DNA from: Paracoccaceae bacterium
GTDB lineage: Bacteria; Pseudomonadota; Alphaproteobacteria; Rhodobacterales; Rhodobacteraceae
NCBI GenBank assembly: GCA_026710155.1
Contig: JAPORQ010000018.1
Coordinates: 1-39,452 of the forward strand
DNA length: 39,452 nucleotides
Reading direction: 5' to 3'
A program made the position numbers and the translations under genes. Numbering within the stretch: the stretch's first letter is position 1; every line of letters begins with the position of its first letter. Below the pieces are notes generated by a model that was given only the letters and a program-made list of their open reading frames with translations, searched no databases and was not told where the DNA came from. This document shows positions 1-39,452 of this stretch, one piece after another.

Positions 1-140
1 CTGTCCGGCGATGTGGTCATCCTCCCCCGTCATTGCCATTGGGGCTTCATTCAACCTAGTTCCTGTCTGGACATGCGCGGCATCCACAGGTTCCATCAGG
101 TGGGATTGTTCGGACCGGGAGGAAAATCGAACATCCGCCA
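1..140 (-). pseudogene. Degenerate 5' end of a type I restriction specificity subunit gene (hsdS-like), runs off the left edge
   Basis: Read on the minus strand, this stretch encodes a start of the form MEPVDAAHVQTGTRLNEA followed by MAMTGEDD. It lines up residue for residue with the two hsdS-like starts at the right end of the window (minus strand near 39160, and plus strand from 39369, MKLGDVADIRIGTQLNKTS). The match continues some 35 bases upstream of the ATG at the DNA level, so these are copies of one element rather than just one protein family. In type I S subunits this N-terminal segment opens a target recognition domain, usually continuing into YPVxNGG. That motif is eroded here and the rest lies outside the window. 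Assignment rests on the motif and on comparison among the three copies. Confidence 0.5.
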
Positions 141-367
141 ACCCATCTTTATAAGCCCCATAATTTTTGATAGTATGTCAGAAGTACGTAATTGGGAAAC
201 TTGTACCAGGCAATGATAACTATTTAAACTGAAAATAGTATGTGTTATTATCAATATTATGATTCCTACTAAAAAAGGACGAAGCCCCAAGGAAAGATCA
301 ATAGACGAAAACAACCTCAAAACCCCTTGCGATGTATCAGTGAATTATCTCATTGAAAGACTACTGT

Positions 368-2737: not shown

Positions 2738-3143
2738 ACTATTATCAAAAATTATGGGAATTATGATGCCTAACGTTGAACGGTGAAACTTCATAAGACT
2801 GGTATGTCCCAATAGATAACAACAATTATAAAAAATTGTAGAGCACCCCAATTTAATAAGGTGAATCCAAATCCATAACATTGAATTTTCCCAACCCAGT
2901 GTCGGCAAGGAATGAATTCTTTCCTTGCCCGTAGGGTCTCTGACACTATCTTCAACGAAAATTCGGGGATGTGGCAAATTTGATTAATTGCGACTTGAAG
3001 ACAATAAATAGAGGTTCCCTTAAGTCAAATAACATAGAATATTCTCCAAAATGTAGGACAGAATAATCTATCTTTGTACAAATAAAATAATGGTCTAAAT
3101 ATGCAACAAATTGATTATAATTGTCATATTTTGTGACTTATGA
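2738..3143. other. Gene-free stretch between xthA and the transposase remnant
   Basis: About 400 bp of AT-rich sequence with no reading frame that looks coding on either strand and no convincing hairpin terminator. It marks the left boundary of the accessory island. The missing 5' half of the transposase should lie at its right end, but no readable remnant of it was found. Confidence 0.5.
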
Positions 3144-3667
3144 TTCAAGTTTAAAGGAATTGTTGAAGTTGATGAAACTTACATGGGCGGTCAGGAAAGC
3201 AATAAACACGAATCAAAGAAGCTAAAGGCAGGTCAGGAAACAGTAGGAAAAACTGCTATTGCTGGAATGAGAGAACGTAGGAGCGAGAAGGTTATTGCTC
3301 AAGTTATCGAAGATACCAAAAAGGAAACCCTACAAGGATTGGTTAAGAATAATACAGAAGAAGGAACAGAAATACATACCGATGAAAATCAACCATATCA
3401 GGGTTTTCATAACCATAAAACGGTTAATCACAGTATTGGGGAATATGTATGGGCTAATGTCCACACAAATGGAATCGAATGTGGGCAATGTTCAAGAGAG
3501 GTCACAGGGGAACCTACCACAAGATGTCCCTGAAGCACCTGCACAGGTATGAAGCAGAATTTGTTTGAAGGCACAACAACAGGAAATCGGATACCATAAA
3601 ACAAATGGCTGAATTGGTTCTGGGTATGAACAACAAGCAATTGACTTGTAAAGAATTGATTAATTAA
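3144..3667 (+). pseudogene. IS1595-family (ISXO2-like) transposase remnant, N-truncated, frameshifted, with internal stop
   Basis: The reading frame carries the DDE catalytic core of IS1595-type transposases: VEVDETYMGG just before and at 3183, then HESKKLKAG, TVGKTAIAGM, IHTDENQPYQG and HTNGIE near 3460-3479. At about 3479 the frame shifts: the next frame reads [17 protein letters not shown] and then [12 protein letters not shown], the expected continuation. Read this way, a 4-base deletion between GIE and MW explains the shift. A TGA at 3566 then interrupts it, and beyond the stop the frame resumes as RHNNRKSDTIKQMAEL and ends in KELIN at 3667. The N-terminal third is absent, and an in-frame stop lies at 3141. 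The element is therefore dead. It sits 11 bp before the methyltransferase start and may have helped bring in the island. Confidence 0.85.
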
Positions 3668-3678
3668 AAGAGGAATTA

Positions 3679-4488
3679 ATGAATGAAAGGTTAGATCAGT
3701 TTTATACAAAACCCGAGATAGCCAAAAAATGTATTGAAACTGTTTTAGAAAGATTTTCGGATTTAAATAAAAATTCAATACTATTCGTTGAACCTTCGGC
3801 AGGTTCAGGAGCGTTTTACTATCCTTTGGTTAAGCAAGGGTGTGCGGTAAGGGCAATAGATATAGACCCAAAGGCAAAAGAGATACAGAAAGGAGATTTT
3901 TTCAAAAGTTCCAAACTATTCAATGGCGATTATGAATACAGAATTGTAATCGGCAATCCACCCTTTGGTAAGAACTCTTCAAATGCAGTGAAATTCTTTA
4001 ATTTCGCTTCAAAGTATGCAGATGAAATTGCCTTTATAGTTCCCAAAACATTCAGAAAGTTAAGCGTACAGAAAAGATTACATAAACACTTCCATCTTGA
4101 ACTAGATGAAAATGTTGAAACCGATTCGTTTATCTTCGAGGACAGACCCTACGATGTACCCTGCACTTGGCAGATTTGGAAGAAACTTGACTATGAAAGA
4201 GAGATACCCAGCAACACTTCTGTAGATCACTTGCTGACTTATACTGATCAGCATGAAGCGGATTTTGCCATTAGGAGAGTAGGTTTCTATGCTGGTAGGG
4301 TTATTAAAAACGGTATTAATGAACTGTCTCCAACAACTCATTATTTTGTCAGGGAGAATAGAAAAGGTGTTATGGATATTATCAGTGATACCGAATGGAC
4401 AAGTTTAACAGAACAAACAGCCGGTTCCAGATCATTAGCCAAATCTGAGATTTCCAAAGTACTGGAGCAAGAATACAATGGCTGGTAA
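3679..4488 (+). CDS. SAM-dependent DNA adenine-type methyltransferase of a type II-like restriction-modification system
   Basis: A 269-residue class I methyltransferase. Residues 37-45 (VEPSAGSGAF) form the SAM-binding motif I, DIDPKA (about 61-66) is the motif II acidic turn, and NPPFGK (93-98) is the N6-adenine/N4-cytosine catalytic motif IV, of the NPPF form usual for N6-adenine enzymes. A good ribosome binding site (AGAGGA) precedes ATG 3679. Its last 11 bases overlap the start of the next gene, which looks like the cognate nuclease, so the two were translationally coupled. The enzyme looks intact while its partner is broken, so it probably now acts as an orphan methylase. Recognition sequence cannot be read from the protein. 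Its AT-rich composition suggests acquisition. Confidence 0.85.
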   Translation: MNERLDQFYTKPEIAKKCIETVLERFSDLNKNSILFVEPSAGSGAFYYPLVKQGCAVRAIDIDPKAKEIQKGDFFKSSKLFNGDYEYRIVIGNPPFGKNSSNAVKFFNFASKYADEIAFIVPKTFRKLSVQKRLHKHFHLELDENVETDSFIFEDRPYDVPCTWQIWKKLDYEREIPSNTSVDHLLTYTDQHEADFAIRRVGFYAGRVIKNGINELSPTTHYFVRENRKGVMDIISDTEWTSLTEQTAGSRSLAKSEISKVLEQEYNGW

Positions 4489-5114
4489 ATCTAAAAATCA
4501 AATGCACGGAAAGGCATTTGAAAACCACATAAAGGCAGCAAACGGAATATTTTCTTATGCTGCTGCCGATAGGAAAAGAAGCTCCGGCGAAAAATTTGAT
4601 ATAAGCGGTACAGACGATACCGTTCGAGGTATTCCAACTTCAATCAAATCCTCCAATGGAGATAGTATAGCCCTTTCCGATGCTAGGAAGTTTTGATTAT
4701 GTTCCCTACTGCATCCTTGTTGGTATCTATCTTCAAAGAGAAAATGAAAAAGAATTTAGGGAGATTCACGAGATAATTATTCGAGGGGATTATAGGAGTG
4801 ATCTTTTAGGCACTGTAACATTGGAACAGGTTACAGTTTTTCATAATGTTTTGCTTGGGCTTGGATTGGGCAGGCATGAAGAGGCACGAGGATGGGCTGA
4901 TGGAAGATATGAGGAATTAAGAGAAAATCTGGGTAAAGTTGCTCTTAATAGGAAGATTGACAGTAAAAAGCAAAGAAGATTGCAATGTAGTGTAGGTTTA
5001 TCAGATTTAATTAAAGTCTTTAACAGAAGTGATTACACACTTCATAATTTAGAATTTGGTAATCTTATTTTACCGCTTCGTATAAAAAGCGGTTCAAGAA
5101 AATTCAATGTATAG
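4478..5114 (+). pseudogene. Frameshifted restriction endonuclease partner of the methyltransferase
   Basis: Two adjoining frames make one protein. The first, from ATG 4478, reads MAGKSKNQMHGKAFENHIK and on through AAADRKRSSGEKFDI to IALSDARKF, ending in TGA at 4695. The second takes over at about 4684 with SFDYVPYCILVG and runs to KFNV at 5114, including EIHEIIIRG, VTLEQVTVFH and KIDSKKQRRLQCSV. The first part resembles restriction-like proteins I recall that carry a GKxFE...AADxxRS...DARRFW pattern; the family recall is from memory. An 8-base deletion between two AGTTTTG repeats would turn an ancestral DARKFW-SFDY junction into what is seen. The total of about 210 residues fits a type II nuclease. 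Because the frames overlap, the lesion could also be a programmed or sequencing frameshift. Confidence 0.7.
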
Positions 5115-5504
5115 AGACCAAGGCATGAAACAGAAAAACAATAAAAAATAAAACTTCCAAGCAATACTTACCAACCAAGTGTTAAAGAATTAAGGGAAGA
5201 AGTACACATAGCATTAAGCCCTGATGAGCTGGCTGATTTGGTTGTTGAGGACTACGATATTGAACATGAAAAATTAAGGGAAAATGTTGCTCATGTATAT
5301 AATTCCCTAAATAATCTATGCATAAATCTTAATTGAGTTTGACTCATGAATTAGCCTGCAATCAAACTCAACAATTCCCACCATACTTCTTCAATACTGA
5401 TAGCTTTAACCGGAGGGTTACTTTGTTCTATAATTTTCTTTAGCTCGAATTATTCTAACAAAACTTGCCGGCAAGTTAAGGAGATGATTAACGGTTTATG
5501 GCAA
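5115..5504. other. Gene-poor stretch with a possible broken small ORF and a palindrome
   Basis: A short ATG frame at 5125 stops after eight codons inside an A-rich run. A different frame, open from 5145 to 5310 without a normal start, reads TYQPSVKELREEVHIALS followed by PDELADLVVEDYDIEHE, which is protein-like. A single indel in the A-rich run would join the two into a roughly 60-residue protein. I do not recognise it, and it may be a third, decayed gene of the island. The rest of the stretch holds only the palindrome listed separately. Confidence 0.3.
5462..5477 (-). terminator. Perfect 16-bp palindrome, possible terminator of the monooxygenase gene
   Basis: AACTTGCCGGCAAGTT is a perfect palindrome 27 nt beyond the monooxygenase stop on the minus strand. 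As RNA it can form a 6-bp stem with a CCGG loop, followed on the minus strand by only a short T-rich run (TTG). It is therefore a weak terminator candidate or a protein-binding palindrome. Confidence 0.35.
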
Positions 5505-21906: not shown

Positions 21907-22257
21907 ATGTCAGGGCAAAATGGTCTCGTGAAATTGGACCAGCAGGTAGCTGTACTGGAGGAACGCATGAACACGATTACCGAGAGTAATGACCGGGGTT
22001 GGAAACTCATTGAAGCCAAAATGGGGGAAGCAACCGCCGGCATGAGGGAGGATAATGCCAAACTTGAAGCCAAAATTGGGGAAGCAACCGCCGGCATGAG
22101 GGAGGATAATGCCAGGCGGGATACCGAATTTGCCAAACTTCGTGAAGACAACGCCAAGCGGGACAGGAACATTGCTATCCAGATTTATGCTGTGGGATTT
22201 GGAATTTTGATCGTGATCATTGGAATCGGCGGAACGATCATCAGCCTGTTGATCTGA
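21907..22257 (+). CDS. Coiled-coil protein with tandem 18-residue repeats and C-terminal membrane anchor
   Basis: A 116-residue protein. Residues 8-90 are a charged heptad-like coiled coil (KLDQQVAVLEERMNTI and on), with an 18-residue unit EAKMGEATAGMREDNAKL repeated almost exactly. The underlying 54-bp DNA is duplicated in tandem at about 22014-22121. The last 25 residues (YAVGFGILIVIIGIGGTIIS and on) form one membrane helix, with the coiled coil presumably in the cytoplasm. Start ATG 21907 with an AGGC-type ribosome binding site. Function unknown; similar short coiled-coil tail-anchored proteins are common and poorly characterised. Confidence 0.7.
   Translation: MSGQNGLVKLDQQVAVLEERMNTITESNDRGWKLIEAKMGEATAGMREDNAKLEAKIGEATAGMREDNARRDTEFAKLREDNAKRDRNIAIQIYAVGFGILIVIIGIGGTIISLLI
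22014..22121 (+). repeat. Two tandem copies of a 54-bp unit inside the coiled-coil gene
   Basis: The two 54-base units starting at GAAGCCAAAATGGGG and GAAGCCAAAATTGGG differ at only a few positions, mostly near their ends. They encode EAKMGEATAGMREDNAKL and EAKIGEATAGMREDNARR. A partial third unit follows. Such arrays change copy number by slippage. Confidence 0.85.
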
Positions 22258-22308: not shown

Positions 22309-22515
22309 AGGCTATGGTCCCGGATGAAAGTTTGGAAAAGATGAATGAACATTGCGACAAGCGCTGGAAACTCCTTGAAACCAAATTGTTGGAAAGATAC
22401 CTCCTCTTTGCGTGAGGATATTGCCAAACCCGAAAACGCCAACAACCGCTTGTTGATAAGGATAATTTCTGCAGCAATGGCGAGTGTCATTGTTGTTGTA
22501 TTGTCAATTTCCTGA
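22309..22515 (+). pseudogene. Frameshifted paralogue of the coiled-coil membrane protein
   Basis: Directly downstream of the intact gene, a frame reads QAMVPDESLEKMNEHCDKRW and then KLLETKLLER, matching QVAVLEERMNTITESNDRGW and KLIEAKM of the neighbour. After a frameshift near 22400 it continues SSLREDIAKPENANNRLL and ends with a membrane helix (ASVIVVVLSIS) before TGA at 22515. It is an old tandem duplicate, now broken, and it lacks the tandem repeat expansion. Confidence 0.7.
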
Positions 22516-38592: not shown

Positions 38593-38866
38593 CAACTCGC
38601 GAAGTTACAGGAAATGACAACAGGAAAAGTAATAGACAATATCTTGTGTTTCATGAAGGATTTTTTTCAAAAAAGCAAAAGCAATAACCCGCTATCGAAT
38701 GATAGTGAAAAAACTTCGTTACTGTTTGCAAAGTAAATGATCATGTTTTACCGAATAGCGACAATGCCTGCCAAGGCACGGCATAGTGGGCTCCTGATAT
38801 AGCCTTCCAAAAAAACTTCATATGTAGGCACAATTGAAACTTGTAATTTTCTGATATGCATGGAAT
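38593..38866. other. Intergenic stretch with a possible 40-residue ORF
   Basis: A small ORF from ATG 38614 to TAA 38736 (40 residues, MTTGKVIDNILCFMKDFFQK onward) starts 22 nt after the aminopeptidase stop. An ACAGGA sequence lies just ahead of it. It is lysine- and serine-rich with no recognisable motif; coding status is doubtful. No terminator was recognised after it. Confidence 0.35.
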
Positions 38867-39215
38867 TTACACATCATGCTCCCGTAGTACCATCACCACG
38901 AATAAAGCCTGGGCGCCGGCCGCCTGTGCAGCATAAGACACAGACACCCGTCGGGGACAGTGGGCGTTTTCGACGTTGCGGCAAGACAATGTACACCGCC
39001 CCGGCCGAGGGCAGTGGAACCCGTTTCGGCATTGGATTGACTGTGGCAGCCGGATGGCTTGATAGCCCGTCCATGAACGGGTGTTTCCCCACCATTGCCA
39101 TTTGGGTTTCATGCAACCGGGTTCCGGTCCGGATGTTGGCAGCATCCCCAGATTCCATCAGGTAGAATTGTTCAAACCGGGAGGTGAATTGCAAATCCGC
39201 ATGGTCAGGTATTTA
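38867..39215 (-). pseudogene. Degenerate type I restriction specificity subunit (hsdS-like), 5' half
   Basis: On the minus strand the frame reads LQFTSRFEQFYLMESGDAAN, IRTGTRLHETQMAMVGKHPF and MDGL. This matches the plus-strand copy at 39369 and the left-end copy at 1-140. Further on, TVNPMPKRVPLPSAG keeps the spacing of the N-TITISEGG segment of S subunits. A neighbouring frame supplies ENAHCPRRVSVSYAA and FVVMVLREHDV, resembling the (F/W)SxxHCY...YLFFVLK region. The protein is therefore present but broken by a frameshift and many substitutions. Base composition is visibly GC-richer than nearby genes. Confidence 0.6.
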
Positions 39216-39368
39216 ATACCCTGATTTTGTCCAATTTAATTGCAGACAGAATAGATTGGGGATTATATATTTGAATAGATTTGGCAATTCATTGTTTGAT
39301 CATATATCTCTTGGATGAAGCGTTTCATCCTTTGCAATTTTCCTTCCGATCCGGATAATCCCACCTGA
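39216..39368. other. Short AT-rich spacer between head-to-head hsdS-like copies
   Basis: This is a spacer of about 150 bp. Its right end (39340-39368) is the element-specific upstream sequence (TTTTCCTTCCG then AATCCCACCTG) shared with the two minus-strand copies. Its left part shows no gene or clear promoter motif. Confidence 0.5.
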
Positions 39369-39452
39369 TGAAACTTGGAGATGTCGCAGATATCCGGATT
39401 GGAACCCAGTTGAATAAAACCTCCATGGTCATGACAGGGGAGTATCCTGTCA
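39369..39452 (+). CDS. Type I restriction specificity subunit (hsdS-like), partial at the right edge
   Basis: ATG 39369 opens MKLGDVADIRIGTQLNKTSM followed by VMTGEYPV and is still open at the window end. KLGDVxxIxxGxxLxK...GEYPV is the usual start of the first target recognition domain of type I S subunits, where NGG normally comes next. Unlike the other two copies it shows no lesion in the visible part. It faces the degenerate copy at 38867-39215. An hsdM or hsdR gene, if present, lies beyond the window. The protein could also be a shorter S-like fragment. Confidence 0.6.

Follow-up and report, generated by a model that had tools for sequence, protein, structure and literature searches.

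Dispersed hsdS-like gene starts in a Paracoccaceae genome as probable IS1595-type mobile cassettes

We analysed a 39,452-nucleotide stretch of DNA (the window), which is the entire contig C44 of a draft genome (G000; 3,134,940 bases in 83 contigs, 98.01% complete) and holds three hsdS-like gene starts. Most probably (about 0.9 by our estimate), these starts belong to non-autonomous IS1595-type mobile cassettes, that is, mobile insertion cassettes grading into MITEs, which carry an orphan hsdS as passenger and would be moved in trans. The copies show terminal inverted repeats and 8-bp target duplications; the best copy, on contig C70, is free of transposase and encodes the one intact HsdS; resident IS1595 elements have near-identical ends; and broken copies occur as insertions of their own. 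The original prediction had named a dispersed repeat family using an hsdS start as one of its readings, and this proved right: copies elsewhere in the genome are separate insertions, several with 8-bp duplications of their own.

Three hsdS-like starts at the ends of one contig

All three predicted gene starts are real, with revised boundaries: 1–159 (minus strand), 38914–39221 (minus) and 39258–39452 (plus). They sit at the ends of C44, and several further contigs also stop inside copies of the repeat. Positions 19–127 and 39337–39445 are 76% complementary over 109 nt, the right-hand minus copy and the plus copy are 68.9% alike over 122 nt, and the right-hand minus copy matches the intact C70 element at 72% over ~228 nt. 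The ~35 bp of common upstream DNA noticed earlier belongs to a longer shared unit that starts at the terminal inverted repeat. A genome search of the kind originally proposed, run with a 593-bp query (window 38860–39452), returned at least 51 own-genome matches at E ≤ 0.001 on many contigs, far beyond chance, with 40 of 77 first-look candidates scored.

The left copy (1–159, minus) is the 5′ part of an hsdS element. It carries what we call a type B end, GGGGCTTATAAAGATGGGTTG, at 139–159 and an hsdS-like ATG at 96, from which 32 codons stay open until the contig end cuts the copy. The right-hand minus copy (38914–39221) is a decayed hsdS element, whose degenerate terminal repeat, beginning GGGTATTAAATACCTGACC, starts at 39221. 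Its ATG lies at 39158 and its frame is open for 94 codons; by our reading of the alignment, it departs from the HsdS frame after ~31 codons. Homology to the copy on C82 extends to 38914, and no 3′ end of this copy was found.

The plus copy is represented by its first 195 bp (39258–39452), and its interior is unassembled. Contig C76 stops at the same point, with 193 bp in common at 100%. The outer end of the element is the terminal inverted repeat GGGGATTATATATTTGA (39258–39274, plus; 0 mismatches in the pattern search), preceded by an 8-bp target duplication, AATAGATT, at 39250–39257 (plus). Because contig C12 begins with a 3′ end flanked by the same 8-mer, we read the 39258 copy as a probable insertion whose opposite end is the start of that contig. 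A promoter-like TTGCAA-16-GATAAT (39332–39359, plus; spacing counted from the sequence) ends 8 nt before the start codon. The hsdS ORF (39368–39452, plus) runs off the contig after 28 codons, which are the first 28 of the 355-aa C70 HsdS (C44:39368–39451, 100%). A gene start had been predicted at 39369; it is present, and the ORF begins at 39368. The two right-hand copies do face each other as claimed; measured from the element ends (39221 and 39258), the gap between them is 36 bp, and their start codons are ~210 bp apart. The most likely reading of this head-to-head arrangement is a pair of insertions separated by 36 bp.

Elsewhere in the window, a short ORF contains two tandem 54-bp repeats (22010–22117, 94% alike), and a third, less similar copy (63%) lies at 22376.

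The intact C70 element and its family of copies

The best copy of the repeat, C70:54511–55677, is a 1167-bp unit with terminal inverted repeats and an 8-bp target duplication. It is bounded by GGGGATTATATACTTGACTACGCA and, inverted, CGGGATTACATACTTGATTAAGCA, and AAAAATTC flanks it on both sides. The sole ORF of at least 110 aa listed between these ends is hsdS (355 aa), and there is no transposase inside. By eye, it lies between what looks like a sugar transporter cluster and argB/ysxC/yidC-like genes. A Pfam Methylase_S search of the genome gave seven matches, among them one intact two-domain gene (C70:54574–55593) and the hsdS belonging to a regular type I operon on C51. Whether the likeness to S subunits continues past the first 30 residues had been set as a test of the plus copy; because that frame stops at the contig end, we applied the test to the C70 sister copy, which is a full HsdS with two Methylase_S domains. 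Among proteins of solved structure, the EcoR124II specificity protein (7bst) is its best relative, with E 2.1e-28. When compared with the genome, the 355-aa protein matched 34 places at E ≤ 0.01, of which only C70 itself covers the whole protein; the others are partial, several with stops. Whereas C70 HsdS carries two Methylase_S stretches (target-recognition domains, TRDs), the remaining copies hold one TRD or fragments, and copies with differing target-recognition segments have the same start.

The shared upstream stretch of C70 also contains a promoter-like TTGCAA-16-TATAAT that ends 8 nt before the ATG; a transcript from it would be almost leaderless. A promoter scan of a 301-bp C70 stretch found three promoter-like sites against a shuffle mean of 0.9 (sd 1.1), a statistically weak excess. 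As a separate observation, the copies differ in the length of a C-rich stretch before their conserved region, a difference that might point to phase variation.

A profile of the 5′ ends, applied to the part of the genome examined (~0.48 Mb), detected at least 34 hsdS-like 5′ ends on many different contigs; 4 of the 34 score just 28–34 bits. For 20 of the 34, a candidate 3′ end lies within 1.7 kb. Perfect (8/8) duplications flank five of these 20 paired elements (C23, C25, C48, C65 and C70), one (C20) has 7/8, and 14 score 6/8 or lower, which is expected for old or rearranged copies and is also compatible with wrong ends. Sizes range from the full-length C70 element (1167 bp) through long partial copies (C27, 867 bp; C25, 833 bp), copies of about half size (559–691 bp; C10, two on C20, C23, C32, C48 and C59) and short copies (344–369 bp; C43 and C65) to six MITE-size remnants of 207–233 bp. 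Low duplication scores (5/8 and 1/8, respectively) cast doubt on two further candidates, C41 (1263 bp) and C76:278 (635 bp). The majority of the 20 paired copies are half-genes, broken genes or 207–369-bp remnants. An independent scan for terminal inverted repeats and target duplications, from which weak pairs (7/8 duplications or poor repeats) were left out, set the same boundaries for C70, C23, C48 and the minus copy on C20.

Copies split between contigs supplied further duplications. Pairing 13 5′ ends with 11 3′ ends, mostly at contig ends, gave a common 8-mer flank in 6 of 143 pairings (one base of slack per side; 3′ ends of C60, C42 and C36 left out). In a control with flanks shifted outward (400 runs), the mean was 0.03 matching pairs and the maximum 1; the tested flank pairs had first been noticed by eye, and C59 was entered for that reason. 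The pairs are C7–C45 (ATTCGTTT), C44–C12 (AATAGATT), C46–C31 (AAAAGTTT), C56–C23 (CTTTTTTA), C62–C37 (AAATTTTA) and C59–C3 (AGTGATTT). The flank at the 3′ end of C59 itself differs from its 5′ flank, which pairs with C3, indicating that contig C59 is recombined or chimeric.

Some of the paired copies carry a dead version of the gene. In the element on C46, C56 and C62 (0–4 differences in 143 bp), the frame consists of an ATG, six more codons and an in-frame TAG. A TAG after seven codons is also found in the C8 copy, making four places in all; an indel shifts the register between C8 and the other three, and the stop codon alone was used for this comparison. C7 equals C62 across 70 assembled bp and ends before the stop. 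The corresponding 3′ ends, on C45, C77, C23, C31 and C37, show at most one difference in 80 bp. As dead-frame copies have matched duplications at three of the four places (C46, C56 and C62), movement does not need an intact HsdS.

Resident IS1595 elements, shared ends and other cargo

IS1595-family elements produce 8-bp target duplications and are known to carry passenger genes. The IS1595 (ISXO2-like) transposase family PF12762 has 16 matches in the genome. Of two patterns made for the terminal inverted repeats, pattern A, for what we call the type A end, matched 242 times (17 in the reversed control) and pattern B, for the type B end, 37 times (1 in the reversed control). Transposase-bearing IS1595 elements with 8/8 duplications were found on C51, C64, C13, C11, C10 and C21, and several resident IS1595 elements carry DNA methyltransferases. 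The hsdS elements thus have what is typical of non-autonomous IS1595-type units: ends in common with the family IS, an 8-bp duplication, and a transposase elsewhere and not inside.

The best candidate source of transposase would be an IS that spans the contig ends C73/C36. Its ends match the left end of C70 (C70L) at 22/24 positions and the right end (C70R) at 21/24. C73 and C36 overlap by 26 nt inside the open transposase frame, the product of which has an ISXO2-like transposase domain, and the flank AAATAATA recurs on both sides. The partner transposase is not certain, since the ends of C51R match C70L equally well (22/24); the C51 transposase is split in two overlapping frames. In the same in-register comparison, C41L scored 21/24 and C10R 22/24. 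No transposase with a type B end was found.

Together, these data are consistent with a model in which IS1595/ISXO2-like transposases made elsewhere in the genome would cut and insert the elements in trans, each insertion duplicating 8 bp. We saw no transposase inside the elements, and the hsdS passenger would have the promoter-like sequence as its own. One target-recognition domain may be lost through recombination between the two conserved HsdS repeats, and copies would then decay to MITE-size remnants.

Several observations concern other IS1595-derived DNA, the load of which is heavy for a 3.1-Mb genome. In the window, outside the hsdS elements, an IS1595 (ISXO2-like) transposase gene remnant lies at 3153–3577 (plus; PF12762 at C44:3153–3479 and 3470–3577). 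It falls in an apparent decayed IS1595 element (2753–5307) in which transposase pieces are followed by a 269-aa ORF (3679–4488), DNA methyltransferase-like by eye and with no Pfam match. An inverted 31-nt stretch is shared at 84% between 151–181, the outer flank of the left hsdS element, and 2734–2764, the flank of the decayed IS1595 element; within it, ATCAAAAATTAT directly adjoins both element ends. On C51:22135–23917 (L047 2136–3918), an IS1595 element whose transposase is split between two overlapping frames and which has the duplication TAAATTAT immediately precedes the only type I operon seen (hsdR-hsdS-AAA gene-hsdM). Pairs of GGGAATTATATACTTGA ends ~181 bp apart on C29, C51, C54, C55, C70, C78 and C82 are probably MITEs.

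Other cargo was seen between similar ends. A unit on C82:24100–25493 (L196 1101–2494) is transposase-less and has type A ends, the duplication AAAAATTA, an SDH/ClpP-like protease gene and a small ORF. On C55:20303–22859 (L028 5304–7860), a DNA methyltransferase and a SocA-like gene lie between type A ends with the duplication GTTTGATT, and no transposase was recognised. As both lack a recognised transposase, this genome contains several cargo-only units, the hsdS cassette among them. The T5orf172-tailed DNA methyltransferase found between type A ends on C55 recurs, by eye, inside a type B end on C49 (L205 1–523); like hsdS, cargo thus seems to be found with either family of ends.

HsdM partner, distribution and significance

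Searching for the HsdM family PF02384, we obtained no match on C44, and the only strong match in the genome was that of C51. This HsdM shares 35–44% identity with the HsdMs near relatives of C70 HsdS (n = 71). For comparison, 270 aa of the HsdM encoded next to L070, the closest named relative, are 49–100% identical to them (median 66%; n = 70, itself included). By sequence, therefore, the C51 HsdM falls in a different group from the HsdMs found with relatives of C70 HsdS. According to PMC12707154, type I families are defined via subunit exchange, which depends on compatible interaction surfaces. Since exchange needs such surfaces and the C51 HsdM is of another group, the resident HsdM probably cannot use C70 HsdS. 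No hsdM or hsdR was recognised beside C70 and no cognate hsdM anywhere in the 98.01% complete assembly (hsdR was sought beside C70 only), and the intact C70 copy looks like an orphan at present.

The cassette might nevertheless be kept as a mobile specificity module: an intact HsdS would confer new target specificity on type I HsdM/HsdR of the same cell or, once transferred, of recipients, and half-S forms may work as dimers. The intact two-domain, EcoR124II-like C70 copy with its promoter-like sequence, and the different TRDs behind the same start, would fit this. To this can be added a codon-position comparison of the first TRD in eight copies, in which third-position fractions of 0.33–0.45 lean weakly to the third position. 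No copy reached p < 0.05, however (the two lowest were 0.051 and 0.054; in the alignment, the C39 row does not include the start, and the alignment of the C41 row is poor towards its end), which gives no clear sign that most copies are kept as genes and leaves room for past selection on the source gene. The movement of dead-frame copies and the other-group C51 HsdM also speak against the module, and we consider it unlikely. The same holds for its wider form, which we would not favour either: a transposon family whose working cargo is the type I specificity subunit alone, a mobile 'address label' that moves from site to site and from cell to cell, directs any compatible HsdM/HsdR to new targets and varies its recognition domains via half-genes and recombination between copies at different places.

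hsdS is a classic substrate of inversion shufflons, and the original prediction had also raised a phase-variable type I locus, in which inverted silent hsdS pieces recombine with an expressed hsdS and change specificity. The two facing copies, with start codons ~210 bp apart, and the different target-recognition segments behind one start would agree with such a locus. However, C44 lacks a PF02384 match, and the inverted copies in the window are just 69–76% alike over ~110–120 bp and are not near-identical repeats. The 34 5′ ends are dispersed over many contigs, several with target duplications, and the whole protein is covered only by the C70 copy. By eye, no site-specific recombinase was recognised in the window's ORF list. 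We regard a silent-cassette inversion locus as very improbable.

The element was also sought in related genomes. A DNA match to the element was found in only two of nine genomes of the genus, G000 and, weakly (E 2.5e-5), G198. In a family sample of 394 genomes (two candidates scored per genome), nine matched, G000 and eight others, over short stretches at 66–84% identity. At the protein level, 14 of 198 family genomes matched, G000 included. The G167 protein match, the only one outside G000 examined closely, was rejected as the same element: by look it is an ordinary hsdS remnant, with no terminal repeats. The search for HsdS relatives retained 80 named ones, and 71 of these had a detectable hsdM in the DNA examined around them; hsdM and hsdR were sought with one C51 query set, which may miss distant ones. 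When seven relatives without detected hsdM or hsdR (L103, L108, L117, L125, L135, L146 and L149) were scanned for terminal repeats and target duplications, none was transposon-like (0/7); the scan recovered both positive controls, C70 and C48. That the copies come from foreign contigs binned into the genome is scarcely credible: the draft is in 83 contigs, several ending in the repeat, and few genus genomes match, but contamination is estimated at 0.61%, copies lie inside many contigs, several of them tens of kb long, and matching duplications tie contigs together.

Among known systems, a mobile insertion cassette consists of IS ends and a passenger gene, MIC231/IS231 being an example. The elements described here resemble MIC231 as transposase-less, IS-related units, but the IS is of IS1595 type, the passenger is a lone type I specificity subunit, and the copies grade from full gene through half gene to 207-bp remnants. 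According to PMC3129680, MICs and MITEs are IS-related objects without a transposase of their own that can be activated by the cognate transposase of a related intact IS. C70 HsdS is like the EcoR124 (type IC) HsdS in its two Methylase_S stretches and in having 7bst as best solved relative; in contrast to most relatives of this type, which have an hsdM nearby, the C70 gene stands alone in a transposon between unrelated genes. 'Transporter IS' of the IS1595 family with passenger genes have reportedly been described by Siguier et al. in 2009; the same transposase family is abundant here, several members with a DNA methyltransferase passenger, whereas the hsdS elements lack transposase and carry the specificity subunit only. 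In lactococci, solitary hsdS genes occur on plasmids and the chromosome supplies HsdM/HsdR. Both are mobile lone specificity genes, but the one described here is in a multicopy transposon with no obvious cognate HsdM. A literature search, with most subscription journals outside its reach, found no description of a transposase-less element with hsdS alone. Three features are unusual: a lone type I specificity subunit as passenger, the number of copies, and their gradual decay, within one genome, from gene through half gene to MITE.

Overall, besides plasmids and shufflons, these elements would add a transposon route by which a type I specificity gene travels alone. They also carry a warning, as 'orphan hsdS' calls in draft genomes and contigs that end in hsdS starts may be transposon copies. 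Finally, the series from cassette to MITE in a single genome illustrates concretely how captured genes may give rise to MITEs.
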